Shown in pieces: positions 15,056 through 34,867 of a DNA stretch of 43,328 nt. Below the pieces are notes generated by a model. That model had not been told where the DNA came from. It ran no database searches and was given only the letters and a program-made list of their open reading frames with translations. The DNA is from Desulfobulbaceae bacterium (GTDB lineage: Bacteria; Desulfobacterota; Desulfobulbia; Desulfobulbales; VMSU01), in NCBI GenBank assembly GCA_013792005.1, contig VMSU01000230.1, positions 1-43,328 on the forward strand, in the 5' to 3' direction. Positions within the stretch are counted from its first letter, which is position 1, and each line of letters opens with the position of its first letter. The translations under genes and the position numbers were made by a program.

Positions 15056-16789
15056 TTATGGCGAACCCGGCGAGTGATGGCCGTCGTTTACTCTCTGGCT
15101 GTGGCAGTTAATGCAGGTGCCAGCCGTGATGGCTACGGCCTTGGTGATCCCGTACAATTGAAAGTCCAGTTTAAGCCCGAAATAGGTGGGCTCATGGCAG
15201 GTGATGCACATCCGTGGATGAACCTGGAAAACGGTGTTGCCAGGGTGACAGCCGGTCGAACTGAGGCAGTTCGGTGCGCGGTCGACTTGGCCGACGTGGT
15301 CATTCGCTTTGAGGTGCAAGGTTACGTCGTCAGCGATGATCTGATGGCAGTTAATGCAGTCACCAGGCCCGTACTGAGCGGCCAGGCTGATCTTCGTCCC
15401 GAAAGAGCCATCGGCATTGGGGGTCATGTTGTGGCAGTGGGTACATTGGTTTTTGTGGATGTCGACGACGGTGTCGGTTTTGTTGTGGAAATGGCAGGCG
15501 TTGGTGCAGTTGAGCACGGTTTTGTCAACCTGGCCGGTATGATTGTTTTTGTTCTGATGAAAGTCGAAATAGTCTGCGCCATGGCATTCTCCGCAGTTGC
15601 CGTTTGCTGTTGGTGGGGTGAGGGTTGGCCAGACCAGCGGATCTTTGCGGAACGGGGCGCTGCTGCCGACTGTCTTCAGATCTGGCGGGCCACTGGCTGC
15701 GTGGCAGGCATTACAGTCAAATTGATGAATGCCTTCAACAACTTTCGTTTGGGTGTGGCAATTAACGCAGGAGGTCAGTTTGGCGATGAATTCGTCGTGG
15801 TCAGGGTAGTTCGGTTTGAATCCTTGGGCGATGGTGTGGCAGGATGTGCAATTGGAGCCATCGTTGTGTGAAGTCAGAGTGCCATCGTTTTTCCAGTAAT
15901 GAGTTTGGGTGTGGCACACCTGGCAGATGGCTTCTGTGGTGGCACCGCTGGCGCTATCGACAAGGCCGTCCTGAGAGTCGAAGAACTTCACACTCTTGGC
16001 GCCACTGTTTGGGGTTGCGATGCTGGATTTGACGAGCTGGCCATAGATGATGCCGAAATTGCTGCCGGTGTATTTGCCGGAATCAATCGGGTCGCTGCCG
16101 CTTTGGACCGTGATGGTTCCCTCGCCAAGGCCGGCTGCCCCGTTGGTAATCGCTGTTGTGGTCGAGGCGCTGATGATCTCATAAGTCTTTTCGCCGGTCG
16201 TGTATCCGAGGGAGATGAGCAGACCACGGCCAGTATTGCCTGATTTCTGACTCCAACGCTCGGTGTCCTGCCATGGAGCTTTTGCCGCAGCGTTGGTGAA
16301 GGTGATGGCAGTGGTGCCGTCATTGTTGTCGGTAATGGCGCCGATAGTTCCTTCTGCCAGGTAGAGACCGCCAGCTAAGGAGCCGTCACCAAAGGTAGCG
16401 GTGGCAGAGAGCCAGTTGAACTGGGCTTGGAGGTGGGGGTCGTGGCAGTCAATGCACTTGGTGCTCCCGTCCCCTAAAACAGTATTGTGGGAGTCCCCCA
16501 TGGAGAAGGCTGAGTGGGGGAGTTTGCGGAATTCCGAACCGCTGGCTCCGTGACATTTGTTGCAGACATCATCGGTGCGTCCGTCGTATTCCGCAGTGCC
16601 TGGAGTGGTAGGAGAAAATTGCCACCATAAAGAGTAGGAGTGGCATGAACTGCAGTGAACATCATGCGATTCATTGTGAGGGGCATCAAGGACTGATGTT
16701 GCATAGGCGCTTCCCGCTGCCAGCATGGCAGCCAGTAGTCCAGTCGTAGCTGCCCTGACGACTGGGATGAGTTTCCATTGGTTTTTCAT
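15056..16789 (-). CDS. Secreted multihaem c-type cytochrome (12 CXXCH plus two unusual haem-like motifs)
   Basis: The 577-residue protein starts with a Sec signal peptide (MKNQWKLIPV..., cleavage near SAYA-TS), so it acts outside the cytoplasmic membrane. Twelve CXXCH motifs are present: CSSCH, CNKCH, CIDCH, CQVCH, CTSCH, CVNCH, CNACH, CGECH, CTHCH, CINCH, CITCH and a second CINCH. Two more are non-canonical: CTNACH (CX3CH) and CLSSTGCH (CX5CH). About 165 residues with no haem motif separate the third and fourth haems and look like a beta-rich insert. Such proteins carry electrons in anaerobic respiration or extracellular electron transfer; the partner is unknown. The ATG at 16789 has GGAG 10 nt upstream; a TTG six codons earlier is possible. 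It lies downstream of the PHP-like gene on the same strand. Confidence 0.93.
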   Translation of the reverse strand: MKNQWKLIPVVRAATTGLLAAMLAAGSAYATSVLDAPHNESHDVHCSSCHSYSLWWQFSPTTPGTAEYDGRTDDVCNKCHGASGSEFRKLPHSAFSMGDSHNTVLGDGSTKCIDCHDPHLQAQFNWLSATATFGDGSLAGGLYLAEGTIGAITDNNDGTTAITFTNAAAKAPWQDTERWSQKSGNTGRGLLISLGYTTGEKTYEIISASTTTAITNGAAGLGEGTITVQSGSDPIDSGKYTGSNFGIIYGQLVKSSIATPNSGAKSVKFFDSQDGLVDSASGATTEAICQVCHTQTHYWKNDGTLTSHNDGSNCTSCHTIAQGFKPNYPDHDEFIAKLTSCVNCHTQTKVVEGIHQFDCNACHAASGPPDLKTVGSSAPFRKDPLVWPTLTPPTANGNCGECHGADYFDFHQNKNNHTGQVDKTVLNCTNACHFHNKTDTVVDIHKNQCTHCHNMTPNADGSFGTKISLAAQYGPGDCINCHQIIADDVTLHLKANDHVGQVDRAPNCLSSTGCHPGNTVFQVHPRMCITCHEPTYFGLKLDFQLYGITKAVAITAGTCINCHSQRVNDGHHSPGSP

Positions 16790-16862
16790 TTTTTCTTGGC
16801 TCCGCAATTAGTAGGGATTTTAATCAAGATAACGGCGGCTACCAGCTAAATATTGTTGCACT

Positions 16863-19165: not shown

Positions 19166-20539
19166 ATGAAATTAGACTGGGATATGACTATTCTAGTAGT
19201 GGATGATACTGGTTTCATGCGCAAAATTATTGCAGATATTTTGCAAAAAATTGGCTTCAAAAACATTGTTGTAGCGGTAGATGGATTGGATGCCATTGAA
19301 AAGTTAAAAGAGCATCGGGTTGGTCTGATCCGCTCTGACTGGAACATCCCTAATATGGATGGGCTGGCGTTACTTAAGCATGTCCGACAGGATGAGCAGA
19401 ATAAAGATGTGCTTTTCATCATGGCAACTGCCCAGGCTGACAAGACGAATATCTCGATTGCTATGGAGGCGGGCGCTAATTCCCATATCGCCAAGCCTTT
19501 TGATGAAGGGCAGATAAAACTGAAGATTGACGAGATCTTCGGGATCACGACCGAAACGGCCACAATTCAATCTCAACCTCGGGTGGTGGCTGGCAAGGTC
19601 AAAATGAAGATTGGTCATATCCAGATTACCGATCACTTGGCGCTTGGTGTTTTAAATCATCAAATTAATACCGGAGAGGTCACGCCAAAGTATTTTGAGC
19701 TTGAGTCTCTCTGTATGGCGGGTTGGAACCCGGTCCAGGATACGCTGGAGAATGGACAGGTTGATGGCGCCTTTGTGCTGGCGCCAATCGCCATGGATCT
19801 CTTTGGGTTTGGGGTGGATATTCGCCTGATCCTGCTGGCTCATAAAAACGGTAGTATCTTTGTCCGTTCGCGCAATACCCCATTCTTGGATTATGCCTCT
19901 GAGGCCGAATTTTATAAGTATAAGGCTGTTAATATCCCGCACAAGATGTCGATCCATCATCTGCTGGCCCATCAATACTTAAGCGGCTTGGGTCTTAAGC
20001 CTGGGGTGCCGGGCGCCGGCAAGGCAATCAATGTTCGCTTCGAGGTGGCGCCTCCCATTCAGATGCCTGCGATCATGAAGGAAAATGATGAAGTGGGGGG
20101 ATTTATTGTTGCCGAGCCGATTGGCTCAAGCGCGATCAAGGCCGGCATCGCTGATCTGCAATTTATCTCCTCGTCGCTCTGGCCCGAGCATCCCTGCTGT
20201 GTAGTGGCCATGCGCAATGAGTTTATTCAACAATATCCTGATGCGGTCCATGAATTTACCGCCTTGCTCATGCAGGCAGGGAAATATGCCGAGCAAAATA
20301 AGGCTATAGCGGCAGAAATCGCGGTGCCGTTTCTTGATCCGCACAAGACGCTTGGTCTGCAGCAAGCGGTAATCCAAAAAGTTTTGGAAGATCCTCAGGG
20401 GATCACGATGCGCGATCTGTATCCGGTGCTTGAGGATCTCGATAAGATTCAGCGGTATATGTTCGACAGTATGGGGGTCGGCAAGATCATCGATCTGGAA
20501 AAACTGGTTGACTTGAAATTTGCCCGCGCGGCGGGGTGA
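19166..20539 (+). CDS. CheY-like receiver fused to an NrtA/SsuA-like substrate-binding domain
   Basis: The 457-residue protein joins two parts rarely seen together. Residues 1-~125 are an intact receiver: acid pair D13/D14, phospho-acceptor D58 (in SDWNIPNMDG), T88 and K110 (AKPF). Residues ~145-440 resemble the substrate-binding proteins of nitrate/sulfonate/bicarbonate ABC transporters: KIGHIQITDHLALGVL, NGQVDGAFVLAPIAMDLFG and LWPEHPCCVVAMRNEFIQQYPD. There is no signal peptide, and the receiver must be cytoplasmic, so the binding domain is intracellular. I infer a ligand-responsive CheY-like output or phosphate sink. The ATG at 19166 follows AAGGAG at 19155-19160. It is the first gene of the chemosensory locus; the next gene follows after 25 bp. 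The ligand is unknown. Confidence 0.85.
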   Translation: MKLDWDMTILVVDDTGFMRKIIADILQKIGFKNIVVAVDGLDAIEKLKEHRVGLIRSDWNIPNMDGLALLKHVRQDEQNKDVLFIMATAQADKTNISIAMEAGANSHIAKPFDEGQIKLKIDEIFGITTETATIQSQPRVVAGKVKMKIGHIQITDHLALGVLNHQINTGEVTPKYFELESLCMAGWNPVQDTLENGQVDGAFVLAPIAMDLFGFGVDIRLILLAHKNGSIFVRSRNTPFLDYASEAEFYKYKAVNIPHKMSIHHLLAHQYLSGLGLKPGVPGAGKAINVRFEVAPPIQMPAIMKENDEVGGFIVAEPIGSSAIKAGIADLQFISSSLWPEHPCCVVAMRNEFIQQYPDAVHEFTALLMQAGKYAEQNKAIAAEIAVPFLDPHKTLGLQQAVIQKVLEDPQGITMRDLYPVLEDLDKIQRYMFDSMGVGKIIDLEKLVDLKFARAAG

Positions 20540-20564: not shown

Positions 20565-22214
20565 ATGACGCGGACGACTGCGGTCAATAGTCGGTATGCC
20601 TTGGAAGAAGTTCTTGCCAATTTGGACAGTCGCGACCTGATCAAGGCTCGAATTGTTCTGGGACATTTTTCGCATCTTGAGGAGGGGGCGCAACGTCGGA
20701 TTCTTTTTGAATTGAACAGACGTGACGATCAGATGTGTTTGGCTATGCTGGTGTATCTCATCTCGACAAATCAGCAGGCCCGTGAGAAGTATTCGGATAT
20801 CGCGGAAAGCATTCTGGCCAAGGTTCTGGATGAGCCCCAAGACCTCTTGAGTCTTTTGACCTCCTGCCGTGGTGTGGAGATGTGCTACTGTATTGAGCTT
20901 GTCGGTAAAATTCGCTTACGCGAGGCAGTGCCGGAACTCATTCAACTGTTGGCGAGCCACTCCGACCCAGTTATTCTCAAGGCGGCTATTGTAGCTCTCG
21001 GCGTCATCGGCAGTCCTGACGCGGTAAATGCCATCACCGGAATCATCTTGTCAGGTAGTGATTCTTTGATTTTGCCTGCGATTCAGGCCTTAGGCCAGAT
21101 AGCTTCACCAACCGCCATGCAACGCCTGGTGGAATGTCTTGGCACAGACGAGGCCATCGACATGATCATTTTGGATATTTTTGCCGCTATTCAGGATGAC
21201 GTGGCCCTTGAGATTCTCAACAAGACTCTTCAGTCACGCTCCGCTGTTTTGCGGAATTACAGTAAGAGTAAATTGATCGCCATTGGCAACAAGGCTGTGC
21301 CGATTTTGATTGCCAATCTTGCCTCGCCCGACTCGGATTTGCAGATTCACTCCTTAAACGCGTTGTTGGAAATTGGTGATGATAGTGCAGTCATGCCTAT
21401 CCGTAAGCTGATCACCACTCAACCTCATAACGCCAATGTCAGATTTGCCGCCTTTGAGGCCTTGGCCAATCTGCCGGTGCGCAAAGGCGATTACATCTGG
21501 GCCAGCGGACTTCTTGACTCGGAAAGCAATATCCGGTTAGCCGCAGCCAAGGCTATCGAAAGAACTCTTGACGATGTTCTCTCCGCTGGTATCAGGAATA
21601 TGGTACGAAATCAGGACCAGGAGGCAGTTCAGGTCGTGAGGGCCGTCTTGGATAGTCAGTCGAAGAACATCGTCCTTAACCTCATTCGTCACGAGATTGG
21701 TGTCGATCTGGTTATCGACTACCTTACCTCCCAAGCTCATCAGGATATCAGGGCGTTTTTTTTCCAGGTCCTGTTGGAGGCTGGCTATGCCGATTTGGCT
21801 CAAGTTGTCATCGACTCTCAAAAGCAACAAGGTGTCAAAGAGAGCATCAAGGTTTGTGCTGTCGATGATTCGCGGATGATCCTCAGTGTCTACCGCAGTG
21901 TCTTGAATGAGTTGGGCTATGAGTCGGAGTTGTTTACCAATCCAGAGGTAGCCCTTGACTGGCTCAAGATAAATCAGGTCGGATTTGTCTGCACGGATCT
22001 TAATATGCCGGAGATGACCGGGATCGATCTGACCCGAGCGTTACGAAAAATATTTAACAAAGAGCAGTTGCCGATCATCATGGTCACCACCCAGAATGAT
22101 CGGCAGGAGCATGGAGAGGCGATTGCGGCGGGCGTTAATTGTATTGCAGCCAAGCCGTTTGATGCCAAAAGCTTGCAGGCGGCAATAGCGACTATTCATC
22201 ATGTTTCGCCGTAG
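20565..22214 (+). CDS. HEAT-repeat protein with C-terminal receiver domain
   Basis: In this 549-residue protein residues ~80-400 are repeated pairs of amphipathic helices of HEAT type, for example REAVPELIQLLASHSDPVILKAAIVALGVIG and VPILIANLASPDSDLQIHSLNALLEIGD. HEAT solenoids bind other proteins. Residues ~428-547 are an intact receiver with acid pair VDDS, phospho-acceptor D478 in CTDLNMPEMTG, and K in AAKPF. No output enzyme or DNA-binding domain is seen, so phosphorylation probably changes what the solenoid binds. It lies 25 bp after the receiver/binding-protein gene and 90 bp before the PP2C regulator. The ATG at 20565 has no strong ribosome-binding site. The partner protein is unknown. 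Confidence 0.85.
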   Translation: MTRTTAVNSRYALEEVLANLDSRDLIKARIVLGHFSHLEEGAQRRILFELNRRDDQMCLAMLVYLISTNQQAREKYSDIAESILAKVLDEPQDLLSLLTSCRGVEMCYCIELVGKIRLREAVPELIQLLASHSDPVILKAAIVALGVIGSPDAVNAITGIILSGSDSLILPAIQALGQIASPTAMQRLVECLGTDEAIDMIILDIFAAIQDDVALEILNKTLQSRSAVLRNYSKSKLIAIGNKAVPILIANLASPDSDLQIHSLNALLEIGDDSAVMPIRKLITTQPHNANVRFAAFEALANLPVRKGDYIWASGLLDSESNIRLAAAKAIERTLDDVLSAGIRNMVRNQDQEAVQVVRAVLDSQSKNIVLNLIRHEIGVDLVIDYLTSQAHQDIRAFFFQVLLEAGYADLAQVVIDSQKQQGVKESIKVCAVDDSRMILSVYRSVLNELGYESELFTNPEVALDWLKINQVGFVCTDLNMPEMTGIDLTRALRKIFNKEQLPIIMVTTQNDRQEHGEAIAAGVNCIAAKPFDAKSLQAAIATIHHVSP

Positions 22215-22304: not shown

Positions 22305-23855
22305 ATGCGCAATAATTATACGATATTGATCATTGATGATGTCAGTTTAAACGTCCTGCTGTTGAAAGGGATATTGGAAGAGATAGGGTTGTCCGTTCTT
22401 TCGGCCATGAATGGGCCAGACGGCCGCCGGATTGCCGAAGCCGAGCAGCCGGATCTTATTTTACTTGATATCATGATGCCTGGCGAAGACGGGTTTGAAA
22501 CCTGCAATAAGCTGAAGGCCAATGCCGCGACAATTGACATCCCGATAATCTTTATTTCAGCTCTTGACGATCAGGCGAGTGTCGTTAAAGGACTCTCTAT
22601 TGGCGGCTGGGACTATATCTGCAAGCCATTCAACATGGCTGAGGTCCAGGCCCGGGTCAAAAACTATCTTCGGTTGCAGTCTGCTTATAAAATGGTGATT
22701 GAAGAGCAGTCCAAACGCCTGCGGCAGATCTTTGATGCCCAGCAGGCCATTTTAGTCTCTCCTGATGCTGTTTCCGATGCCCAATTTGGGGTTTACTATC
22801 TGCCGGTGAATGAAGCTGGGGGAGATTTTTATGATGTCATGCAAATCAGTGATGATCTGTTCGGTTATTTTGTTTCCGACATCAGTGGCCATGACCTTGG
22901 CACCTCATTTGCCACTTCAGCATTAAAAGCTCTGATCAGGCAAAATTCATCCCAGCTCTATTCTACTTCCGAAACGATTCGGATCATTAATAAGATTCTC
23001 CTTACGCTCTTTACTGACGGACAGCATCTTACCGCGGTCTATGGCATTCTTGACAAGAAAAACATGACCTTCAGTCTGGTCAATGCCGCCCATCCTCCAA
23101 TCCTCTATCTGCCGGTGGCCGGCGATCCTGTTTGGTTGCCGGCTAATAGTGATGTCATTGGTGTCTTTCAAGATGCGGTTTTTGAAACGCAGGTCATTAG
23201 TGTCCGGGAGGGGGATCGATTGATGTTATATACCGATGGTTTGATCGAAACCTTCTCCGGAAGGGCGATGAGCCGGGAGGAAGGGTATCAGTTGCTTGAG
23301 GCTGCCGGTAGCGCCACTACGGACTGTCCTTGCCAGGAGGCGGTGAATGATGTTGTCAGGACCATGTTTGCTGATGGCCGGAAGGCAGAGGATGATGTCC
23401 TCCTGCTTGGGATTGATATCAGCGTGTTTCGGACTCAAGTGACAAAAACAGGCTTTACGGTCATTTTGCCCGCGACTTTTAAGGCAATCGACTCGGTTGC
23501 AGAGAAAGTACAGAAATATCTCAATGCTCATGAGCTCTGTGAATCTGCCTTTGGAATTGTGTTAGGGTGTCGGGAGGCTTTGACCAATGCCGTTCGTCAT
23601 GGCTCGCAGGGTGACCCCAACAAGAGGGTGACCTTTGAGCTTGCCCGGCGAGAAGCGTTGATAGTGATACAGGTTACAGACCAAGGACCGGGTTTTCACT
23701 GGCAGCAAGCATTGCACCGGGCGGCAAATATTTCTGACGAGGGTGGGCGTGGTTTTGCCATATTGCATCAATATTTTGATACAGTTGAGTTTAATCCCTC
23801 TGGGAATAAAATTGTGTTGTCGGTAAAGGGGGCTGGTCAGCCCGCTCGCTACTAG
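22305..23855 (+). CDS. Receiver-PP2C phosphatase-HATPase partner-switching regulator (CrsR/HsbR-like)
   Basis: The 516-residue protein has three parts. The receiver (1-~125) has D11/D12, D55 in LLDIMMPGEDG and K in CKPF. A SpoIIE/RsbU-type PP2C phosphatase (~150-370) has metal-binding motifs NEAGGDFYDV, VSDISGHDLGTS, LYTDGLIE and EDDVLLLG. A C-terminal GHKL kinase-like ATPase (~385-510) has an N-box GCREALTNAVRHG and DQGPGF. This order is that of Shewanella CrsR and Pseudomonas HsbR, which dephosphorylate or phosphorylate a STAS antagonist and so control an anti-sigma or other target. The STAS partner is the next gene. Receiver phosphorylation by the locus kinases would couple chemoreceptor input to this switch; that is inference. 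The ATG at 22305 has a poor upstream Shine-Dalgarno. Confidence 0.9.
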   Translation: MRNNYTILIIDDVSLNVLLLKGILEEIGLSVLSAMNGPDGRRIAEAEQPDLILLDIMMPGEDGFETCNKLKANAATIDIPIIFISALDDQASVVKGLSIGGWDYICKPFNMAEVQARVKNYLRLQSAYKMVIEEQSKRLRQIFDAQQAILVSPDAVSDAQFGVYYLPVNEAGGDFYDVMQISDDLFGYFVSDISGHDLGTSFATSALKALIRQNSSQLYSTSETIRIINKILLTLFTDGQHLTAVYGILDKKNMTFSLVNAAHPPILYLPVAGDPVWLPANSDVIGVFQDAVFETQVISVREGDRLMLYTDGLIETFSGRAMSREEGYQLLEAAGSATTDCPCQEAVNDVVRTMFADGRKAEDDVLLLGIDISVFRTQVTKTGFTVILPATFKAIDSVAEKVQKYLNAHELCESAFGIVLGCREALTNAVRHGSQGDPNKRVTFELARREALIVIQVTDQGPGFHWQQALHRAANISDEGGRGFAILHQYFDTVEFNPSGNKIVLSVKGAGQPARY

Positions 23856-23943
23856 ACGAACTGTCGTAGGGTAAATGGCCGATGGTTCAGTGTGCGCCAT
23901 CGCCTTTCATATCATAGACGAAGACGAAAAAGAGGATTATGCC

Positions 23944-24243
23944 ATGAGTGAAATTGTACAAGACGGTGGTTCTGTCACTATCAAACCCGGCAGTGATATT
24001 GTCGCCTCTGGGGTAGACAAACTGAAAAAGGAACTGAAAGGGGTTGTGGAAGGTGGTCTTTCCTCGTTGATAATTGATATGTCCGAAGTCAGGATGCTTG
24101 ATTCTATGGGAATCGGCTTGTTGATTGCCACCTACAACTCTTTGAAGAAGAATGGGACGCCGATGGAGTTGATCCATGTCTCCGCTGATATTGCTACATT
24201 GCTCAAGAATATGCGGTTGAATCAGTACTTCAACATCTCCTGA
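23944..24243 (+). CDS. STAS-domain anti-sigma factor antagonist (HsbA/SpoIIAA-like)
   Basis: The 99-residue single-domain protein matches SpoIIAA/RsbV. LIIDMSEVRMLDSMGIGLLIATYNSLKK holds the conserved phospho-serine S54 in the D-S-x-G motif. Such proteins are switched by serine phosphorylation: the kinase part of a partner-switching regulator inactivates them and the PP2C part reactivates them. The gene immediately upstream encodes exactly such a PP2C-kinase protein. The ATG at 23944 begins MSEIVQDGG; an upstream in-frame start would add 23 residues without homology. No anti-sigma or sigma factor lies in the window, so the final target (sigma factor, cyclase or CheA array) is unknown. Confidence 0.93.
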   Translation: MSEIVQDGGSVTIKPGSDIVASGVDKLKKELKGVVEGGLSSLIIDMSEVRMLDSMGIGLLIATYNSLKKNGTPMELIHVSADIATLLKNMRLNQYFNIS

Positions 24244-24286: not shown

Positions 24287-27200
24287 ATGACTGCAATAGT
24301 CGAAGATGAAACCTTGCAGATGTATATCGAGGAATCGAAAGAGCATCTAGACACCATTGAAAGCGACTTGCTGGCGATTGAGCAGCAAGGCGAAAATATA
24401 GATGAGGCCTTGGTCAACAAGGTGTTTCGGGCCGCCCACTCCATCAAGGGCGGGGCAGGTTTCCTTGGTCTTAATACCATCAAGGAGCTTGCTCATAAGA
24501 TTGAGAACGTGCTGGATATGATCCGTAATTACCAGATGGTTCCAATCCCTGATGTGGTCAATATCATTTTGGTGGCCTTTGATTTTCTGGGTGAATTGTT
24601 GAATGATGCGGTTCATAGTGGTGACAAGGATATCTCGTCACATGTCGAGGCCTTGCAGGCTCTGGCCACGGCCAATCTCAATGCTGAAGAGAAAAGATTG
24701 GCGACTCAGACCGAGGAGATTCTGGCAGATGATCTTTTGACCACATTTACTCTGACTGATTTTGATCTGAATCAGGCTCGTCGTGGTGGAAAAAATGTCT
24801 ATATCCTCAAGTTTGATTTGATCCGGGACGTGCAGCGTAAGAATCAGACACCCTTCGCTCTGATGATGCAGCTGGATAGTCTGGGGTTGGTTTTGGATTT
24901 AAAGATTGGCATTGCCTCGGTTGGTGATCTGGATTCGGCTGAAATCTCTTCCGCTATTCCGATGTATGTCCTCTATGCCTCTGCTATTGAAGAAGATCTG
25001 ATCGGCACAGTGCTTGATTTGGATAAAGAAGATATCCGCTTGATTTCCATAGTTGAAAGGGCGGAGTCAAATGGGCAGGGAGAACCGGAGTTACATGATG
25101 CCGTTGACTCCATGGAGGTCTCGATGGGTGAGCCGCCTGAACAGAAAGAGGTAGATCATCAACTGCAGGAAGAGATTAGGCCGGAAAAAAGAGCTGTTGT
25201 CCAGGAGAGTGATAGTCAGTTCGGTAAGAAGCCGCTCAGTACTAAGGTCAAATCTGCGGAAAGCGGGGCCGATTCGCTTCGGGTCAGCGTCGGGGTGCTC
25301 GACCAGTTGATGAACCGGGCAGGCGAGTTGGTGCTGGCCAGGAATCAACTCCTGCAGGCCCTCTCCCAGGGAGATCGGCAAAGTGTTAAGGTGGCAGGTC
25401 AGAGGATCAGCCTGGTCACCTCGGAGCTGCAGGAAACCATCATGCTGACCAGGATGCAGCCGGTGGGCAATATTTTTAATAAATTTCCACGGTTGGTACG
25501 TGATTTGGCCAGGAGCCTGGGCAAGGAGATGGAACTTTCCCTGGAAGGCAACGAAGTGGAGATGGATAAGACCATTATTGAAGGATTGGGTGATCCTCTG
25601 ACCCATCTGGTGCGTAACTCTGCCGATCACGGCATTGAGATGCCGGATCACCGCAAGGACCATGGTAAGTCTATCAGCGGTCGTATTGTCTTGCGTGCGT
25701 TTCATGAGTCGGGCCAGGTTATTATTGAGATTGAAGACGATGGCAAGGGTCTTGATACTGACAAGCTGGCCGCCAAGGCCCTTGAAAAAGGCATCATTAA
25801 CGAGCAGCAGCTTGATGCCATGACCGATGCAGAAAAGATGAACCTGATCATGCTGCCCGGGTTTTCCACCGCCGAGAAGGTTACCGACGTCTCTGGCCGC
25901 GGGGTGGGTATGGATGTGGTCAAGACCAATCTGGACAAACTGGGTGGTCAGGTTGAAATTCAATCCCAAGTCGGCAAAGGCACCGTGGTCCGCATCAAGC
26001 TGCCCCTGACGCTTGCCATTATTCCCAGCCTCTTGGTGTCGAGCTGCGGCCAGAGGTTTGCTTTGCCCCAGGTCAATGTCGGCGAACTCTTGCGCATCCC
26101 GGCCAATCAGATCCGTGAAAAGATCGATAAGGTAGGCGGAGCGGATGTCCTTACCCTGCGCGGTGAGTTGATTCCGTTACTTCAGTTAAACAATGTGCTT
26201 GGCTTGCAACAAACCTACTTTGATGCAAAGTTGGGTGTCATTCGTGAAGACCGGCGGCAGCGCTTGATTGACGATCGCCTCATCAATCAGGAGGGGGAGA
26301 GTGTCTCCCCTTCGCCGGTAGCTAAGGAGGAACATTCAGTAGGTCTTGAGATGCCTGAGCGGCGGGGCAGCCGGTCAAGCGATATCTGTATCGTCGTTTT
26401 GCAGACTGGCGCCTTCAAGTATGGCATGGTGGTGAACGAGGTCCACGACACTATTGAAATTGTAGTCAAGCCCTTAGGGCGACACTTGAAAAACTGCGAC
26501 GTCTATGCCGGCGCCACTATCATGGGTGATGGCCGGGTCTCCTTGATTCTGGATGTGGCAGGCCTTGCCCGTCATGCCGATTTGCGCTCGCTCTCCGATG
26601 CCGAGAAAAAGGCCCATCAAGAACTTAAGGGCGCAAGCGAGGAATCGACCAGACAGTCGCTCCTGCTCTTCAGGAATGGCGCTGAAGAGCATTGCGCAGT
26701 CCCCTTACGCTTAGTCTTGCGTGTGGAGCAGATCAAGACCTCCGATATCGAGATCAAGGGCGGCAAAAAGGTTATTCAGTACCGGGGCGGCAGCCTGCCG
26801 GTGTTTGCCTTGGAAGAGGTGGCGAGCGTTGAGATGCTGGAAGAGTCCGACAAGCTGGCGGTGCTTTTGTTTGTGATTGGCGGCCATGAGGTAGGATTGT
26901 TGGCGGTACCGCCGCTTGATGTCATAGAAGTAGACCTGGTGGTTGATGAATCAACTCTGCGCCAGACCGGCATCAGCGGTTCTGCTATCATTCAGGGCAA
27001 GACCACGCTGCTCGTTAATATCTTTGAGGTGATTTATGCCTTGAAGCCTGACTGGCAGCAGCATGACACGACTATCACCAACTCGGCAGGGGGAGCGGCT
27101 GCTTCGTCAATTCTTCTGGTTGAGGACTCTCAGTTTTTCCGTTCTCAGGTAAAACATTTTATTGAAGATGCGGGGTACCGGGTCATTGAGGCGGAAGATG

Positions 27201-27469
27201 GGGTCGAGGCCTGGGCGATTCTGGAAAAGCGTGCGACTGAAATCGGCTTGGTTATCACCGATATTGAGATGCCCAACATGAACGGTTTTGAACTGACTTT
27301 TAAGATCAAAAACGATCCACGCTTCAGCCATCTTGAGGTAATCGCTCTGACTTCGCTGGCTGGGGAGGAGGATGTGGCCAAGGGCAAAAAGGTCGGCATC
27401 GACGAGTATCAGGTGAAGTTGGACCGTGATAATCTGATTCAGAGTGTCGCGGCCCGGATGCCACGGTGA
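24287..27469 (+). CDS. cheA: CheA-type chemotaxis histidine kinase with second CheW-like and receiver domains
   Basis: The 1060-residue cytoplasmic kinase has domains in this order. First is an N-terminal HPt with phospho-acceptor H51 in AAHSIKGGAGF, then a ~200-residue middle region. A dimerisation helix pair follows (SVGVLDQLMNRAGELVLARNQLL). The GHKL ATPase has GDPLTHLVRNSADHGI, DDGKGLD and SGRGVGMDVVK. Then come a CheW-like P5 domain (~590-780), a second CheW-like segment (~790-925) and a receiver (~940-1058) with phospho-acceptor D in VITDIEMPNMNG. E. coli CheA is about 650 residues with one CheW-like domain and no receiver. The added receiver may act as a phosphate sink or competitor. 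AAGGAGG lies 10 nt before the ATG at 24287. It follows the STAS gene by 43 bp. Confidence 0.95.
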   Translation: MTAIVEDETLQMYIEESKEHLDTIESDLLAIEQQGENIDEALVNKVFRAAHSIKGGAGFLGLNTIKELAHKIENVLDMIRNYQMVPIPDVVNIILVAFDFLGELLNDAVHSGDKDISSHVEALQALATANLNAEEKRLATQTEEILADDLLTTFTLTDFDLNQARRGGKNVYILKFDLIRDVQRKNQTPFALMMQLDSLGLVLDLKIGIASVGDLDSAEISSAIPMYVLYASAIEEDLIGTVLDLDKEDIRLISIVERAESNGQGEPELHDAVDSMEVSMGEPPEQKEVDHQLQEEIRPEKRAVVQESDSQFGKKPLSTKVKSAESGADSLRVSVGVLDQLMNRAGELVLARNQLLQALSQGDRQSVKVAGQRISLVTSELQETIMLTRMQPVGNIFNKFPRLVRDLARSLGKEMELSLEGNEVEMDKTIIEGLGDPLTHLVRNSADHGIEMPDHRKDHGKSISGRIVLRAFHESGQVIIEIEDDGKGLDTDKLAAKALEKGIINEQQLDAMTDAEKMNLIMLPGFSTAEKVTDVSGRGVGMDVVKTNLDKLGGQVEIQSQVGKGTVVRIKLPLTLAIIPSLLVSSCGQRFALPQVNVGELLRIPANQIREKIDKVGGADVLTLRGELIPLLQLNNVLGLQQTYFDAKLGVIREDRRQRLIDDRLINQEGESVSPSPVAKEEHSVGLEMPERRGSRSSDICIVVLQTGAFKYGMVVNEVHDTIEIVVKPLGRHLKNCDVYAGATIMGDGRVSLILDVAGLARHADLRSLSDAEKKAHQELKGASEESTRQSLLLFRNGAEEHCAVPLRLVLRVEQIKTSDIEIKGGKKVIQYRGGSLPVFALEEVASVEMLEESDKLAVLLFVIGGHEVGLLAVPPLDVIEVDLVVDESTLRQTGISGSAIIQGKTTLLVNIFEVIYALKPDWQQHDTTITNSAGGAAASSILLVEDSQFFRSQVKHFIEDAGYRVIEAEDGVEAWAILEKRATEIGLVITDIEMPNMNGFELTFKIKNDPRFSHLEVIALTSLAGEEDVAKGKKVGIDEYQVKLDRDNLIQSVAARMPR

Positions 27470-27618
27470 ATGAAGGGAGGATGTGCTTTGCTTGTCTACC
27501 GAATCTTATATAAACCATAGAGAAGAAGTTCTCTTGAAAATAGAAACGGTTTGCCGGGGCCTCCATGTCTTCGGCAGCAATTAACAGTTTGCGATTCAAA
27601 CAAAATGGGAGAATGGTT

Positions 27619-29289
27619 ATGCAATGGTTCGATGATATGAAAATAGGCAAGAAACTTATTTCCAGTTTTATTTTGATGGCCCTTATCGCTGGTGGTATCG
27701 GGTGGGTCGGTGTCGTCAATATTCGCCATATTGATGATCAAGACACATTCTTGTATGAGAAGACGACTGTCCCGATAGCACTGTTGGTGACGATTTCGAC
27801 CAATTTTCATCGGATTCGGGTTAATCTTCGGGATATGTTGCTGACCGAGGACCAGGCGGAAAGACAAGAGTTTAGTCAACGTATCGATGAGTTGACCAAA
27901 GCTTTAGGAAAGGCAGAGCAGGAGTATGAGAAGACCTTTATTAACGACGATGATCGCAGGATTTTTCAGGAACTGGTGGACAAGCGGGCGGTCTATGTGC
28001 CGATCAGGGATAAAGTGATCGAGATGATCCTGGCCGGGAATAAGGATGGCGCCCAAGCTCTGATGGCAGGGGATGCGATGAAGGCGTCTAATGCCGTGCA
28101 GGAACTCATTGACAAGATTACCGACCTAAATATTCAAGCCGCCAAGGATACCGCAGCCAATAATACAGTTGTAGCCAACAAGGCGGTGACGCTGATGCTC
28201 TCCCTGGCAGTTGCCGGTGCACTTGTCGCGATTTTTCTTGGATTTTTCATTTCCCGTTCCATTGCCATTCCTTTGCGTAAGGGGGTTGATTTTACCACCA
28301 GTGTGGCGAACGGTGACCTCTCACAGACTTTGGCCCTGAACCGGCAAGACGAAGTCGGCGAACTGGCCGCTGCCATGAATGCTATGGTAGGGAAACTTAA
28401 AGGTCTTATTGGTAATATCGGCGATGGAGTAAAGACCCTCTCTTCTTCTGCCACCGAGATGGCAGCCATCTCCACCCAGATGACCAACGGTTCCAACACC
28501 ACGGTGGCTAAGTCCAACGCCGTGGCAGCGGCAGCTGAAGAGATGACCTCCAATATGCACTCGGTGGCAGCCTCCATGGAGCAGGCCTCGACTAACGTCA
28601 ACACCGTGGCCTCGGCAGCCGAAGAGATGAGCGCCAACATCAACAATGTCTCTAACAATGTCACTGAGGCCAAGAGTTCGGCCAACAGCGCCGTCACCTT
28701 GACTAAACGGGCGGCGGATCAGATCAACAACTTAGGCCAGGCAGCAGAGGCCATTGGCTTGGTCACTGAGACCATCAAGGCCATCTCCGACAAGACTAAT
28801 CTCCTGGCCTTGAACGCCACCATCGAAGCAGCCCGGGCCGGCGAGGCAGGCAAAGGATTTGCGGTCGTGGCCAATGAGATCAAAGAGCTGGCTCAGCAGA
28901 CAGCTGACGCCACCGGCGATATCAGCCAGAAGTTGAACGGTATCCAGAAAGCCACCGGCACCACGGTGACCGAGATCAACGAGGTGGTGAATGCCATCAA
29001 TCAAGTTGACAGTCTGATTAACTCCATTACCGCTGCTATCAGTCAGCAGAATGTCGCTACCCGCGATATTTCTGAAAACATCAACCAGACGGCGCAGGGT
29101 TTGAGTGAGATTAACACCAATGTCACCCAGACCAGCCAAGCGGCTGGCCAGGTATCAAAAGAGATTGCCGATGTCAATGAATCGGCCAATGAGATCAGCA
29201 ACTCCAGCTCTCAGGTCCAGCAGAGCGCGAGCGAGTTGAGCAAGCTCTCCGAGCAACTGCAGGGCATGGTTAATCAGTTTAAAGTGTAA
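27619..29289 (+). CDS. Methyl-accepting chemotaxis protein with four-helix-bundle sensor
   Basis: The 556-residue protein has a first membrane helix (~residues 9-32), a ~150-residue periplasmic 4HB-type helical sensor, and a second membrane helix (~190-212, [19 protein letters not shown]). A HAMP domain and the long cytoplasmic MA coiled coil follow. The hairpin tip is [60 protein letters not shown], the standard CheA/CheW-binding signature. Alternating alanine/serine/glutamate blocks offer methylation sites for CheR/CheB. There is no C-terminal CheR-tethering pentapeptide. The ATG at 27619 has GGGAG 7 nt upstream; another start at 27613 lies within this. The ligand is unknown. Its signalling half is nearly identical to that of the receptor at 30124. 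Confidence 0.95.
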
Positions 29290-29390: not shown

Positions 29391-29506
29391 TCCCTGAACA
29401 GAGTCGATTAATATAAGGGCGGTCCTTGAGTGGAACCTGATTTGCAAAGGCGGTGCTGAGCGGAGCCGATTTGTAAGGGTGGTCCCTGAGCGGAGCCGAA
29501 GGGCGG
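29391..29506 (+). repeat. Degenerate tandem array of ~30-bp units upstream of cheW
   Basis: Four head-to-tail units lie at 29391-29422, 29423-29453, 29454-29482 and 29483-29506 (32, 31, 29 and 24 bp). They share a consensus core close to TCCCTGAGCGGAGCCGAtTT and a GGGCGG end. The core is also present, inverted, at 4892-4912. The array fills most of the receptor-cheW gap and ends 23 bp before the cheW ATG. Confidence 0.7.
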
Positions 29507-29529
29507 CAATCAACACATGGGAGAAGGGT

Positions 29530-29982
29530 ATGCTTGAACAAGAGGCTTCTTCAATAAGCCAAGATGAAAACGTTCAGATTTCAACATTTTATTTAAATGA
29601 TACCCTCTGTGGTATCGACATTGATCTGGTCCAGGAAATTAATGGTGATCTTGCCTTTACTCCGGTGCCGCTCGCCGATGACTTTGTGCTGGGGATTATG
29701 AATTTGCGAGGACAGATTGTTACCGTGATCGATCAAGGCATGAAGATCGGTTTTCCTCCATTTAAGAAAACCGGTGAGAGCCGGGTCATTATTGTGCGTT
29801 CTGGCAACGAGCATATTGGGGTCGTAGTCGACAAGGTGAAAGAGGTCGTCACTGTCTCCAGAAAGACCATCTCCAAACCGCCGTCCAATATCAAAGGCTC
29901 TCAGGGGAAGTTTTTCAAAGGGGTGATCCAGACTGAAAAGCATGAACTCCTGGCTTTGCTTGATATCGACGAAATCTTGTGA
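29530..29982 (+). CDS. cheW: CheW coupling protein
   Basis: The 150-residue single CheW domain links CheA to chemoreceptor tips. Typical elements are FYLNDTLCGIDIDLVQEI, GIMNLRGQIVTVIDQGMKIG (the conserved N-LRG-x-ivPVIDL-like loop) and IIVRSGNEHIGVVVDKVKEVVTV. I chose the ATG at 29530 because GGAG lies 7 nt upstream. A GTG at 29479 would add 17 residues encoded by the tandem repeat, which is unlikely to be real. The gene stands between the two chemoreceptor genes, with 240 and 141 bp gaps, so it may have separate transcription start sites. Confidence 0.95.
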   Translation: MLEQEASSISQDENVQISTFYLNDTLCGIDIDLVQEINGDLAFTPVPLADDFVLGIMNLRGQIVTVIDQGMKIGFPPFKKTGESRVIIVRSGNEHIGVVVDKVKEVVTVSRKTISKPPSNIKGSQGKFFKGVIQTEKHELLALLDIDEIL

Positions 29983-30123: not shown

Positions 30124-32154
30124 GTGAAAATTTTTGTTAAACTGACCGGATCATTTATTATTGTTGCTCTTATTACAGCTCTTGTCGGCATTATTGGCTG
30201 GATAGGAATCAACTCCACCCAGAAGAACCTTATTGAGGTGGCCGAGGTCCGAATGCCTGCCATTCAAGGCCTTGGCTGGATGATGGAGGCCATGAATGCC
30301 ATTAAGTCGGCGGAAAGGACTATGCTCATGTCTTCAATTACCAACAAGGACCGGCAGCATGAAGTCAATAATCTCGTCAAGCGCTGGCAGTTGTTTAACG
30401 ATGGACGCGACCTTTACGAGCCACTACCCAAAAGCAAGGAAGAAGCCGAATTATGGGCAAAGGTGTCTGACCTGACCCGCCAATGGCACACGGAACACGC
30501 CAAGCTAGTGGTCAAGGTAAAGACTGTACGCCTTGATGATATTGAAACCATGGAAGCAATATTGGTACAACGCCTGCTGGACCATATTCTTTGGGTTAAC
30601 GCTCTAGAAGTTGCAATCGCCAGCGGCATACCGTTTACCGGCCAGCTTGATCCCACCAAATGCGGCTTTGGCAAATGGCAATTCGCCTTCACTTCCGATA
30701 GCCCTGAGTTCAATGCTATTATTTCCGAGATGACCCCCGATCACCAGAAGCTGCACGGCCATGGCCACACGATCAATGACTTGTTGTCCCAAGGCAAAAC
30801 TGATCAAGCCCACGTCATCTTCAGTCAGGAGGTAAAACCGACTCTCGCTGCCATCCGCGCACATTTTGATACCGCATTAAAACATGTCCGGGGTGAAATC
30901 ATCTTACTTGATGAGGCAAGAGAAATAGGGTTCGGCAGTGAGCGATTGGTATTCAGCCAATTAGACAAAGCTTTAGATGATGTTGTTGAGCACAACACCA
31001 AAGTTGCCGCTAAGAGTAAGACTATGGCGATTACAACTTCCGCCCGCAGTAAGTTTACCTCCCTTTGTGCCATAGGACTGGGAACACTTATCGCTATCGT
31101 CTTCGGGGTCTTGCTGTCGCGCAGCATCTCGGTACCCTTGGCCAAGGGGGTTGCCATGCTAGAGGATATTGGACAAGGAATTTTGACCGGCAGGTTGAGG
31201 ATGAATCGTGCTGACGAAATCGGTCAGATGGCCAATGCCATTGACCAGGTGGCAGACAAGCTCAGCGCCATGATTAAGGGTATCAGCGACGGCGTCAGGA
31301 CCTTAACCTCATCGTCGACGGAGATGGCCGCCATCGCGAGTCAAATGACTTCTGGCGCTTCGATCACGGTGGCCAAGGCCAATTCAGTGGCAGCGGCAGC
31401 CGAAGAGATGACTTCCAACATGCATTCGGTGGCTGCCTCTATGGAGCAGGCTTCGACCAATGTCAGTACGGTGGCGGCTGCGGCTGAAGAGATGAGCGTC
31501 AACATCAACAATGTTGTAAATAATGCCAACGAGGCCAAAAACTCAGCCAGCGCCGCAGTTGATCTGACTCAGAGAGCGGCGAATCAGATTAATGATTTAG
31601 GTCAGGCGGCTGAGGCCATTGGCCTGGTGACCGAGACCATCAAGGCTATATCTGATAAGACTAACCTCTTGGCCTTAAACGCCACCATTGAAGCGGCCCG
31701 GGCCGGGGCAGCAGGTAAGGGGTTTGCGGTAGTTGCCAACGAGATCAAAGAATTGGCTCAGCAGACCGCAGATGCCACCGGCGACATCAGCCAGAAGCTG
31801 AATGGTATCCAGAAGGCAACCGGCGTCACTGTTGCCGATATTAACCAGGTGGTGGCTTCAATCAACCTCGTTGACGGCCTGATCAACTCAATTTCTACAG
31901 CTATCAGCCAGCAGAATATCGCTACCGGTGATATTTCCGAAAATATCAACCAAACTGCACAAGGCATAAGCGAAATTAACATCAATGTCACCCAGACCAG
32001 TCAGGCAGCGGGCCAGGTGGCCCAAGAGATTGCCGATGTCAATGAGTCTGCCAATGAGATCAGTAACTCCAGTTCGCAGGTCCAGCAAAACGCCAACGAG
32101 TTGAGTAAACTCTCTGAGCAGTTGCAGGGCATGGTTAACCAATTTACAGTATGA
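30124..32154 (+). CDS. Methyl-accepting chemotaxis protein with extracytoplasmic CZB-like zinc-binding sensor
   Basis: The 676-residue receptor has membrane helices at ~11-29 and ~313-332. The ~280 residues between them contain a pattern of the chemoreceptor zinc-binding (CZB) type: DHILW (H154), TKCGFGKW (C180) and PDHQKLHG (H207, H211). Those residues form the known 3-His/1-Cys zinc site. CZB domains usually sit in the cytoplasm at the C-terminus of receptors or cyclases, so this location is unusual. A HAMP domain and the MA signalling domain follow, with the same tip sequence as the receptor at 27619. The start is GTG at 30124 with AAGGA 9 nt upstream. CZB proteins are known to respond to zinc, and in some cases to hypochlorite or pH; the ligand here is not proven. 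Confidence 0.93.
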
Positions 32155-32349: not shown

Positions 32350-33441
32350 ATGCCCATTAAAGTGTTGGTCGTGGATGATACGATTTTTTATCGAACAGTT
32401 GTTTGCGATATCTTAAAGACCTTCCCCAATGTCGAGGTCGTAGGGTCGGCCAATAACGGGGCCATTGCCCTGTCCCGCATTAAAACTTTAAAGCCTGACC
32501 TGATCACCTTAGATGTTGAGATGCCGGTGATGAACGGATTGCAACTGATGGTCGCCATTAACGAGCAGGGGTTGGATGTGGATTGCTTGATGTTAAGTTC
32601 AAAGACGGAAAAAGGCAGCGCCATTACCATGCAGGCTCTGACCCTGGGGGCCTTTGATTTTATTACCAAGCCTGATGCATCTACTCCAGCAGATAATATC
32701 AGGGAACTTACTACGCATCTGCGGAAATTTATCTCTATCTTTGAGCAGCGCCTTATCTTGAAAAGGAAGATGGGGACTAAGGGCATGGTCAAGAAGTCTG
32801 GCGCTGCGCTTGCGGCCTTGCAGACTAAGGAGATATTAGCCGTTTCGACGCGAGCGGCCAATCGGACAGAAAAATCACAGGCCGTGGCCATCGGTATTTC
32901 AACCGGGGGGCCAAATGCCTTGAATATCCTGCTGCCCAAGCTACCAGCACATATTGGTGTTCCAATTTTTCTGGTTCAACACATGCCGCCGATGTTTACC
33001 GCGTCCCTGGCAAAATGTCTTGATGATAAGTGTCAACTCAAGGTCAAAGAGGCGGAAAATGGTGAAACGGTTGTGGCTAATACGGTCTATATCGCCCCAG
33101 GCGGGAAACAGATGAAAGTGGCCAGCAGCGTGGGCTTGGACAAAATTATCCGCATCACCGATGATCCTCCTGAGAACAATTGCAAACCTGCGGTTGATTA
33201 CCTTTTTCGCTCAGCAGCGCGGGAATACGGGTCAAAATTGACCTGCGTGGTTATGACCGGGATGGGTTCAGACGGCCAGATCGGCATGACGGTGGCCAAG
33301 GCCTCCGGGGCGCTGACCATTGCCCAGGACGAGGCCTCGTGTGTGGTCTATGGCATGCCGAAGGCAGTTATTGATGCCGGAGTGGCAGATGTCGTCGCCC
33401 CGCTTGATTCCATTGATCGAGCTATCATCAGAACCTTATAA
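32350..33441 (+). CDS. cheB: CheB: receiver plus protein-glutamate methylesterase/deamidase
   Basis: The 363-residue protein has an N-terminal receiver (acid pair VDDT, phospho-acceptor D55 in LDVEMPVMNG, K in TKPDAS) and a C-terminal CheB esterase domain. The catalytic triad is visible as S184 (GISTGGP), H211 (VQHMPP) and D308 (GMGSDG). It removes methyl groups from receptor glutamates for adaptation; phosphorylation of the receiver by CheA relieves inhibition. The linker contains no tethering motif that I recognise. It lies 195 bp after the second receptor gene and 160 bp before cheR, a gap filled by a repeat. Confidence 0.97.
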   Translation: MPIKVLVVDDTIFYRTVVCDILKTFPNVEVVGSANNGAIALSRIKTLKPDLITLDVEMPVMNGLQLMVAINEQGLDVDCLMLSSKTEKGSAITMQALTLGAFDFITKPDASTPADNIRELTTHLRKFISIFEQRLILKRKMGTKGMVKKSGAALAALQTKEILAVSTRAANRTEKSQAVAIGISTGGPNALNILLPKLPAHIGVPIFLVQHMPPMFTASLAKCLDDKCQLKVKEAENGETVVANTVYIAPGGKQMKVASSVGLDKIIRITDDPPENNCKPAVDYLFRSAAREYGSKLTCVVMTGMGSDGQIGMTVAKASGALTIAQDEASCVVYGMPKAVIDAGVADVVAPLDSIDRAIIRTL

Positions 33442-33601: not shown

Positions 33602-34867
33602 ATGAAATCAATCAGTGCCGAAGAAACACAGTTCATCTCTAAACTGGTCTTTGATGTCTCAGGCCTGCATTTAGACAAGGATAAGGGCTATCTCTTGGAA
33701 ACCAGGCTTAGCCCGTTACTAAGTTTGCATGGCTATCCTTCCTTTATGCAATTATACGCTCAAGCTAAGGCAGACAAATCCGGCAAGTTAGTGCATGAGA
33801 TTGTCGAGGCGATGACCACCAATGAGACTTTTTTCTTCCGGGATACTACCCCTTTTGACCTGATGCGCAACAAGATCATCCCTGATCTTATTGATCGGCG
33901 AAAGAAAGTGTTCCAGTCCGGCAAGATACCTATCAGGGTCTGGAGTGCGGCCTGTTCTACTGGCCAGGAAGTCTACAGCATTGCCATGACCTTGATTGAA
34001 ATGTTTGGCGATCTGTCCAGGTACGACATCTATATCCTGGGCACTGATATCGCTAACAAGGTTATTGCCCAGGCAAGTTACGGGAAGTACAATCAGTTTG
34101 AGATGGATCGGGGGCTGCCTCTGCATTATCGGAAAAGATTTTTTTCGCAAGTTGGCACGGATTGGCGAATCAGAGATGAGGTGAGGAGTCTAGCCCAGTT
34201 TAAGTTAATGAATTTAATGAAACCATTTGCCGATTTGGGTGGAAAATTCGATCTGATATTTTGCCGCAACGTGGCAATTTATTTCAACCAGTCAGATAAG
34301 GTCAGGCTTTTTCAAAAAATCGCCCGGGTCTTGCAGCCGGATGGTGCTCTGGTCATCGGTGGCTCGGAAACCTTGACTGGGATTGCCCCGGATTTTGAGT
34401 CCCGCAGTTACCTGAAGGGGATTTTTCATCAATTACGCGGTCAGACAGCAGCAACACCCCTTCATGTCATGCCTTCGTTGCCAACGCGGCCCACTGCCCC
34501 ACCAGTCAAAGTCAACCCCGCAAAGCCTCATGTCCCTGCCTCATATCCTGTCAGTCCCAAGGCGCCAGAATCAAGGCCTGTTGGCCTCTCAGAGCCTAGG
34601 GACTATGCCCCCCTTGCCAAAACTGAGACCACAATAACGAGCCATTCTGCTGGCGCTGAACTGGAGCCAGCGGCGCGTAAAGAGACAACACCGCCTATTC
34701 CTCACCCGGCGCAACTAGTTCCATCCAAAACAAAAACCTCACTGCTTGCGGCCCTCTCCTCGGCAGGTAAGAGACCTTCCTCCTCTCTTAGGCCTGTGAG
34801 CCAGGGTTCGACAAAAACCTCTTTGCTCGAACAACTAAAAAGGAAGAATAAGAAAAGCAATGAGTGA
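33602..34867 (+). CDS. cheR: CheR methyltransferase with proline-rich, repeat-bearing C-terminal tail
   Basis: CheR methylates receptor glutamates using S-adenosylmethionine. Residues ~1-280 form a complete CheR: an N-terminal helical domain with MTTNETFFFRD, then the SAM-binding motif VWSAACSTGQEVYSIAM, and FDLIFCRNVAIYFN. The tail (~285-421) is proline/serine-rich and low-complexity, and is absent from E. coli CheR (286 aa). It ends with two near-identical segments, TKTSLLAAL and TKTSLLEQL, about 25 residues apart. The tail may dock the enzyme to a partner, since the receptors here lack the usual CheR-binding pentapeptide. Its stop overlaps the start of the hybrid kinase by 8 nt (ATGAGTGA). 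Confidence 0.95.
   Translation: MKSISAEETQFISKLVFDVSGLHLDKDKGYLLETRLSPLLSLHGYPSFMQLYAQAKADKSGKLVHEIVEAMTTNETFFFRDTTPFDLMRNKIIPDLIDRRKKVFQSGKIPIRVWSAACSTGQEVYSIAMTLIEMFGDLSRYDIYILGTDIANKVIAQASYGKYNQFEMDRGLPLHYRKRFFSQVGTDWRIRDEVRSLAQFKLMNLMKPFADLGGKFDLIFCRNVAIYFNQSDKVRLFQKIARVLQPDGALVIGGSETLTGIAPDFESRSYLKGIFHQLRGQTAATPLHVMPSLPTRPTAPPVKVNPAKPHVPASYPVSPKAPESRPVGLSEPRDYAPLAKTETTITSHSAGAELEPAARKETTPPIPHPAQLVPSKTKTSLLAALSSAGKRPSSSLRPVSQGSTKTSLLEQLKRKNKKSNE

Follow-up and report, generated by a model that had tools for sequence, protein, structure and literature searches.

A receiver-fused cytoplasmic binding protein at the head of a chemotaxis gene row as a candidate sensor of imported solute in Desulfobulbaceae

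Binding proteins of the NrtA/SsuA type normally work outside the membrane, where they feed a transporter, and chemotaxis is mostly thought to read the cell exterior through membrane receptors. The coupling of movement to actual uptake is, to our knowledge, little understood outside the sugar phosphotransferase systems. Within the chemotaxis apparatus CheV is an adaptor that combines CheW with a receiver. The DNA analysed here, a contig of 43,328 nucleotides from a Desulfobulbaceae bacterium (the window), encodes a protein in which a receiver is joined instead to an NrtA/SsuA-type binding domain, hereafter REC-SBP. The gene and its parts are as follows:

19166-20539, forward strand: REC-SBP gene, ATG start, 457 amino acids, first gene of a chemotaxis gene row
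19166-19540, forward strand: CheY-like receiver domain, residues 1-125 (Pfam PF00072, E 7.6e-24; CheY Z 23, about 41% identity)
19337-19339, forward strand: codon of D58, the phosphoryl acceptor (D in 108/108 homologues)
19493-19495, forward strand: codon of K110, the conserved receiver lysine (K in 108/108 homologues)
19541-19594, forward strand: linker, residues 126-143, where the AlphaFold model has its lowest confidence (about 65 at residues 131-140)
19595-20536, forward strand: cytoplasmic NrtA/SsuA-type binding domain, residues 144-457 (PF13379, E 1.2e-27; 3un6 Z 37.1; NrtA Z 35.9)

The original prediction, made from the sequence alone, was of a complete substrate-binding fold fused to an intact receiver (D58, K110), and this is borne out by the open reading frame and by both Pfam domains, Response_reg at residues 9-121 (E 7.6e-24) and NMT1_2 at 144-386 (E 1.2e-27), which lie well past their curated cut-offs. 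The receiver contains the full catalytic set D13, D14, D58, T88 and K110, of which D14, D58, T88 and K110 are invariant in 108/108 homologous fusions compared, while position 13 is D or E; it matches the CheY model at E 2.4e-31 and E. coli CheY structures with a Z of about 23 and about 41% identity. With 457 residues and a second domain, however, the protein is not a CheY proper. An AlphaFold model based on an alignment of 51 family members had a mean pLDDT of 91.9 and a pTM of 0.86, with a single dip at the linker. When compared by Foldseek and VIA-align, residues 144-457 superimposed on Staphylococcus aureus 3un6 with a Z of 37.1 (287 residues aligned, 2.0 Å), followed by NrtA (Z 35.9), the cytoplasmic regulatory domain of CmpC (Z 34.6), CmpA (Z 34.0) and then TauA and SsuA. 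The proposed comparison with NrtA, CmpA and SsuA thus returned a complete binding-protein fold and not the refuting outcome, the lack of one.

The first strand of the receiver is the very start of the protein, and no signal-like hydrophobic segment was found upstream of either the receiver or the binding domain; likewise, a hydrophobic or Tat segment ahead of the binding domain was absent from all 67 anchored REC-SBP proteins. REC-SBP therefore lacks the Sec, Tat or lipoprotein export signal of periplasmic ABC substrate-binding proteins, as the original prediction had it, and any ligand must consequently be cytoplasmic.

REC-SBP belongs to a conserved family, found mostly in Desulfobacterota, of which more than 100 proteins were examined; the search for further receiver plus NMT1-like fusions that had been proposed thus recovered both the family and its gene neighbours. 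In the contig scan 80 of 263 relatives were read, so that family-wide counts are lower bounds. These 80 were again mostly from Desulfobacterota, with others in Spirochaetota, KSB1, Ignavibacteriota, Chloroflexota and one gammaproteobacterial bin, and as many relatives are metagenome bins, isolated odd placements may be binning errors. Conservation of the fusion across Desulfobacterota, Spirochaetota and other phyla rules out a chance fusion, a receiver-only gene or a frameshift artefact. Within the order of the window genome 25/96 genomes have the family (E <= 1e-25), and in a sample of the phylum it was found in 17/297 genomes at a stricter cut-off. Sulfate reducers available in culture (Desulfobacter, Desulfospira, Desulfoluna and Desulfonema) also have it, which makes the reading developed below testable.

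The usual form in the order is a triple fusion of about 640-700 amino acids in which the receiver and binding domain are followed by CheW (REC-SBP-CheW; CheW E 4.6e-32). The window genome encodes four proteins of the system: REC-SBP, a triple fusion (635 amino acids, on contig C188, which also encodes CheA and CheB), a stand-alone cytoplasmic binding protein (308 amino acids) and a Tat-exported binding protein within an ABC operon. In a fourth architecture a coiled-coil/TPR-like C-terminus takes the place of CheW (L031 988-2898, reverse strand; L032 1030-2937, forward strand). In a tree of the binding domains, built by a fast search and with SH-aLRT values as its sole support, the exported proteins formed one clade and the receiver fusions another (support 100). 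Inside the latter, the fusions without CheW, the window protein included, made up a single clade of 22 rows (support 97), and the TPR form fell among the triple fusions. Because the CheW-less fusions form a clade of their own, the window protein represents an established lineage and its origin as a recent truncation is rejected. In Desulfobacterota a conserved acidic protein of about 160-320 amino acids (MKITDPxxIKxGEKDLI...), without a Pfam match, is encoded close to REC-SBP and in most cases immediately downstream of it (L093 6957-7586 and 23 more loci).

In the window, REC-SBP is followed on the same strand by this row of genes:

20565-22214, forward strand: HEAT-repeat protein with a C-terminal receiver, directly downstream of REC-SBP
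22305-23855, forward strand: receiver-SpoIIE phosphatase-HATPase protein
23875-24243, forward strand: STAS domain protein
24287-27469, forward strand: CheA kinase with a C-terminal receiver, the candidate phosphodonor
27565-29289, forward strand: methyl-accepting chemotaxis protein (MCP)
29479-29982, forward strand: CheW
30124-32154, forward strand: MCP with a match to a CZB-like zinc domain
32350-33441, forward strand: CheB
33602-34867, forward strand: CheR

In a genome from another genus of the same family (G006) a matching row, SpoIIE, STAS, CheA, MCP, CheW, CheB and CheR, ends with the nearest same-family relative of REC-SBP, which is 68% identical and stands after CheR, at the opposite end of the row. 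Further copies lie near CheA (L055 and L101) and beside an MCP gene (G006:C66), and the window genome encodes FliM and three CheA proteins. The link to CheA that had been suggested for REC-SBP is therefore supported by gene context and by the CheW domain of the sister proteins. The more specific suggestions of the original prediction, that ligand may gate the receiver, make it compete for CheA phosphate or act at the motor, gained no such support. Genes for the triple fusions themselves mostly stand alone, with ABC genes within reach in 1/12 and a separate chemotaxis gene in 0/12. The REC-SpoIIE-HATPase and STAS genes (22305-24243) sit between REC-SBP and CheA, and the recurrence of the SpoIIE-STAS-CheA row in G006 (L116) suggests that partner-switching is tied to the chemosensory system of the window. 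The end of cheR overlaps by eight bases a gene for a large hybrid histidine kinase (GAF, PAS, HisKA, receiver and Hpt; 34860-38855), and near the chemotaxis row, at 15056-16807 on the reverse strand, a CxxCH-rich protein is predicted, probably an exported multihaem cytochrome.

A second gene context connects the family to transport. A five-gene set that ends with REC-SBP recurs in Desulfobacter, Desulfobacula, Desulfotignum, Desulfamplus, Desulfospira and Desulfobacterium-type genomes; it comprises, in order, a stand-alone cytoplasmic binding protein, an NrtD-like ATPase, an exported binding protein, a permease and REC-SBP. These Desulfobacteraceae operons often adjoin genes for CheD and Hpt, identities that were confirmed by Pfam. 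In the 45 REC-SBP loci for which 4 kb or more of upstream sequence was available, all three ABC parts (ATPase, exported binding protein and permease) occur in 28, CheD in 21 and Hpt in 12. The ABC-linked loci are concentrated in a single lineage; in the set filtered at 80% identity, all three ABC parts are present in 5/16 loci and some chemotaxis gene in 7/16. ABC genes also follow the triple fusion of Desulfonema magnum. Tat motifs are present in 37/39 candidate exported proteins, the remaining two being fragments, and the stand-alone proteins typically begin about nine residues ahead of the first strand. In the window genome the ABC operon with its exported protein is on another contig, unlinked to REC-SBP. 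Among its 96 relatives, eight have the exported protein (E <= 1e-50) and all eight also have the cytoplasmic family; as these genomes are related (seven belong to a single family), the co-occurrence is less independent than it appears. A REC-HD-GYP-like gene adjoins the exported-protein operon in three of six genomes of the window's family examined, encoding a receiver protein of about 518 amino acids that is HD-GYP-like by eye (L113 4824-6377; L138 3323-4879; L140 8607-10157).

We propose, with a probability of about one half, that REC-SBP senses an imported solute in the cytoplasm and is wired into CheA signalling. A NitT/TauT-type ABC importer with its Tat-exported binding protein would bring the solute into the cell, where the binding domain of REC-SBP, its pocket positions identical to those of the exported protein, would close on it. 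The sister triple fusions would pass the ligand state to the CheA/CheW system through their fused CheW domain, and the window protein through its CheY-like receiver, with the CheA encoded nearby as its expected phosphodonor. Inferred in this scheme are the binding of a ligand by REC-SBP, the identity of that ligand with the transported solute, phosphorylation of the receiver by CheA, and a mutual influence of ligand and phosphorylation. It should be emphasized that 17 genomes contain the cytoplasmic family without this exported protein and so need another source of ligand under this explanation; two of them (G013 and G035) have a Tat/lipoprotein-like binding protein that carries the identical pocket set and is encoded within about 10 kb of a triple fusion.

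It could be argued that the protein is instead a regulator of transport which, under the control of phosphorylation, binds to the ATPase or permease and restricts uptake in the manner of the cytoplasmic NrtA-like domains of CmpC and NrtC, the chemotaxis kinases serving only to set its state. This is the main rival to the sensor reading, and we consider it unlikely but not negligible. The regulatory domains of CmpC and NrtC are among the best structural matches of the binding domain (Z 33-35 over about 300 residues), the five-gene operon with its ATPase, exported protein and permease is conserved, and the second, stand-alone cytoplasmic protein that adjoins the ATPase resembles a split CmpC. 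In the window and in G006, however, the genes belong to a chemotaxis row without transporter genes, the CheW domain of the triple fusions points to the receptor array, and the ABC operon is accompanied by CheD and Hpt.

What the sensor would bind can be considered from the pocket. The nitrate contacts of NrtA are Trp102, Gln155, His196, Gly240 and Lys269 (PMC13204499), which map, by sequence alignment and not by inspection of coordinates, to W187, S230, H264, A316 and C345 of REC-SBP. The codons of principal interest are these:

19724-19726, forward strand: W187, aligned with nitrate contact Trp102 of NrtA
19955-19957, forward strand: H264, aligned with nitrate contact His196 of NrtA
20195-20200, forward strand: C344-C345, of which C345 is aligned with nitrate contact Lys269 of NrtA

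The W-S-H-A-C set (W-Q-H-G-K in NrtA) is common to 67/67 REC-SBP proteins, 41/41 triple fusions and 35/35 exported proteins examined, and H226, W339, H342 and C344 are likewise identical in the same proteins. All four members of the system in the window genome carry the set; a fifth, unrelated NMT1_2 protein encoded at another locus of that genome is without it and has only a glutamate at 317 in common. The aligned cleft positions of the receiver fusions are invariant and show no erosion, and with receiver and pocket positions intact the window protein cannot be regarded as a degenerate paralogue. By alignment REC-SBP does not have the nitrate-specific pocket of NrtA (W102, Q155, H196, G240 and K269), and nitrate is an unlikely ligand of the W-S-H-A-C pocket. 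Of the candidate ligands put forward originally, nitrate and bicarbonate have both become less likely, because an invariant cysteine replaces lysine 269 of NrtA.

No enzyme that would name the substrate was found near the exported protein in contexts from six genomes of the window's family, and NCBIfam scans of this protein returned sub-threshold matches only (SsuA, SaoX and taurine). An isochorismatase/nicotinamidase-like gene and a nicotinate phosphoribosyltransferase gene follow REC-SBP in two loci (L033 7233-9109; L080 7212-9243), either a hint of the ligand or a coincidence; the idea of deriving the ligand from these genes was dropped, as they are present in these two loci only.

Conservation of the pocket bears on two further explanations. 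In the first, which we regard as improbable, the receiver works alone as a phosphate sink or plain CheY, and the binding domain has lost ligand binding and serves structure or dimerisation. The receiver is strongly CheY-like, and the pocket positions of the stand-alone cytoplasmic proteins vary, most of all in the Desulfobacteraceae operon, indicating that non-binding versions exist in the system; all checked pocket positions are, however, invariant in the 108 receiver fusions, in contrast with the stand-alone proteins. In the Desulfobacteraceae operon, the latter (for example L072 1718-2713) keep the fold with many pocket residues lost, and are perhaps a non-binding regulatory partner. The second, in which the invariant H226, H264, H342, C344 and C345 hold a metal or react with an oxidant or electrophile and no nutrient is sensed, is the least probable: the nearest structure in the PDB, 3un6, bears the title 'with Zinc bound' and has the cysteine pair and two of these histidines aligned, but its zinc may stem from crystallisation, and the same residues occur in the exported protein of the importer.

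To return to the sensor reading, the identity of the pocket positions in the two protein sets means that the cytoplasmic fusions and the exported proteins probably read one ligand, although common descent, and not retention for a common ligand, may account for the identical residues. A fuller version, in which a single pocket serves inside and outside the membrane, the exported protein feeding the importer and the receiver or receiver-CheW copies reporting the internal solute to the CheA array, is tentative and somewhat less probable than the sensor reading as such. If true, movement driven by uptake would need only simple wiring: a binding protein that is soluble in the cytoplasm and equipped with a receiver or a CheW tail. 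The paired pockets inside and outside the cell allow a direct test, as the ligand of one can be tried on the other.

The elements of this system have precedents: cytoplasmic NrtA-like domains are already known from CmpC and NrtC, and CheW-receiver proteins from CheV. The open papers searched contained neither their combination with a pocket shared inside and outside the cell nor any description of a receiver-NMT1 or receiver-NMT1-CheW fusion, which is weak evidence of absence as subscription papers were outside the scope of the search. The CmpC/NrtC precedent, the triple fusion and the ABC importer whose exported protein has identical pocket positions had no place in the original prediction. 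In common with CheY, the receiver of REC-SBP has all catalytic residues (Z 23), but CheY is a single domain and REC-SBP adds a binding domain of 314 residues. The complete two-lobe fold of that domain is shared with NrtA, CmpA, SsuA, TauA and S. aureus 3un6; in contrast with these proteins, REC-SBP is receiver-fused and not exported. By alignment it keeps the Trp102 and His196 positions of NrtA, whereas Gln155, Gly240 and Lys269 are replaced by serine, alanine and cysteine. The cyanobacterial importers of bicarbonate and nitrate offer a parallel inside the cell, as in CmpC and NrtC a cytoplasmic NrtA-like domain is tied to an NrtA-type ABC importer, and the regulatory domain of CmpC has been described as not fully understood (PMC11349869). 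There, however, the NrtA-like domain is fused to the ATPase and has no link to chemotaxis, whereas REC-SBP is fused to a receiver and has no ATPase domain; the aligned segment of CmpC also keeps the NrtA-type lysine (HPGK) where REC-SBP has cysteine. Like CheV, the triple fusions are soluble proteins that combine CheW with a phosphorylatable receiver, but in the order REC-SBP-CheW and with a ligand-binding fold between the two; the window protein, having no CheW domain, is not of the CheV type.
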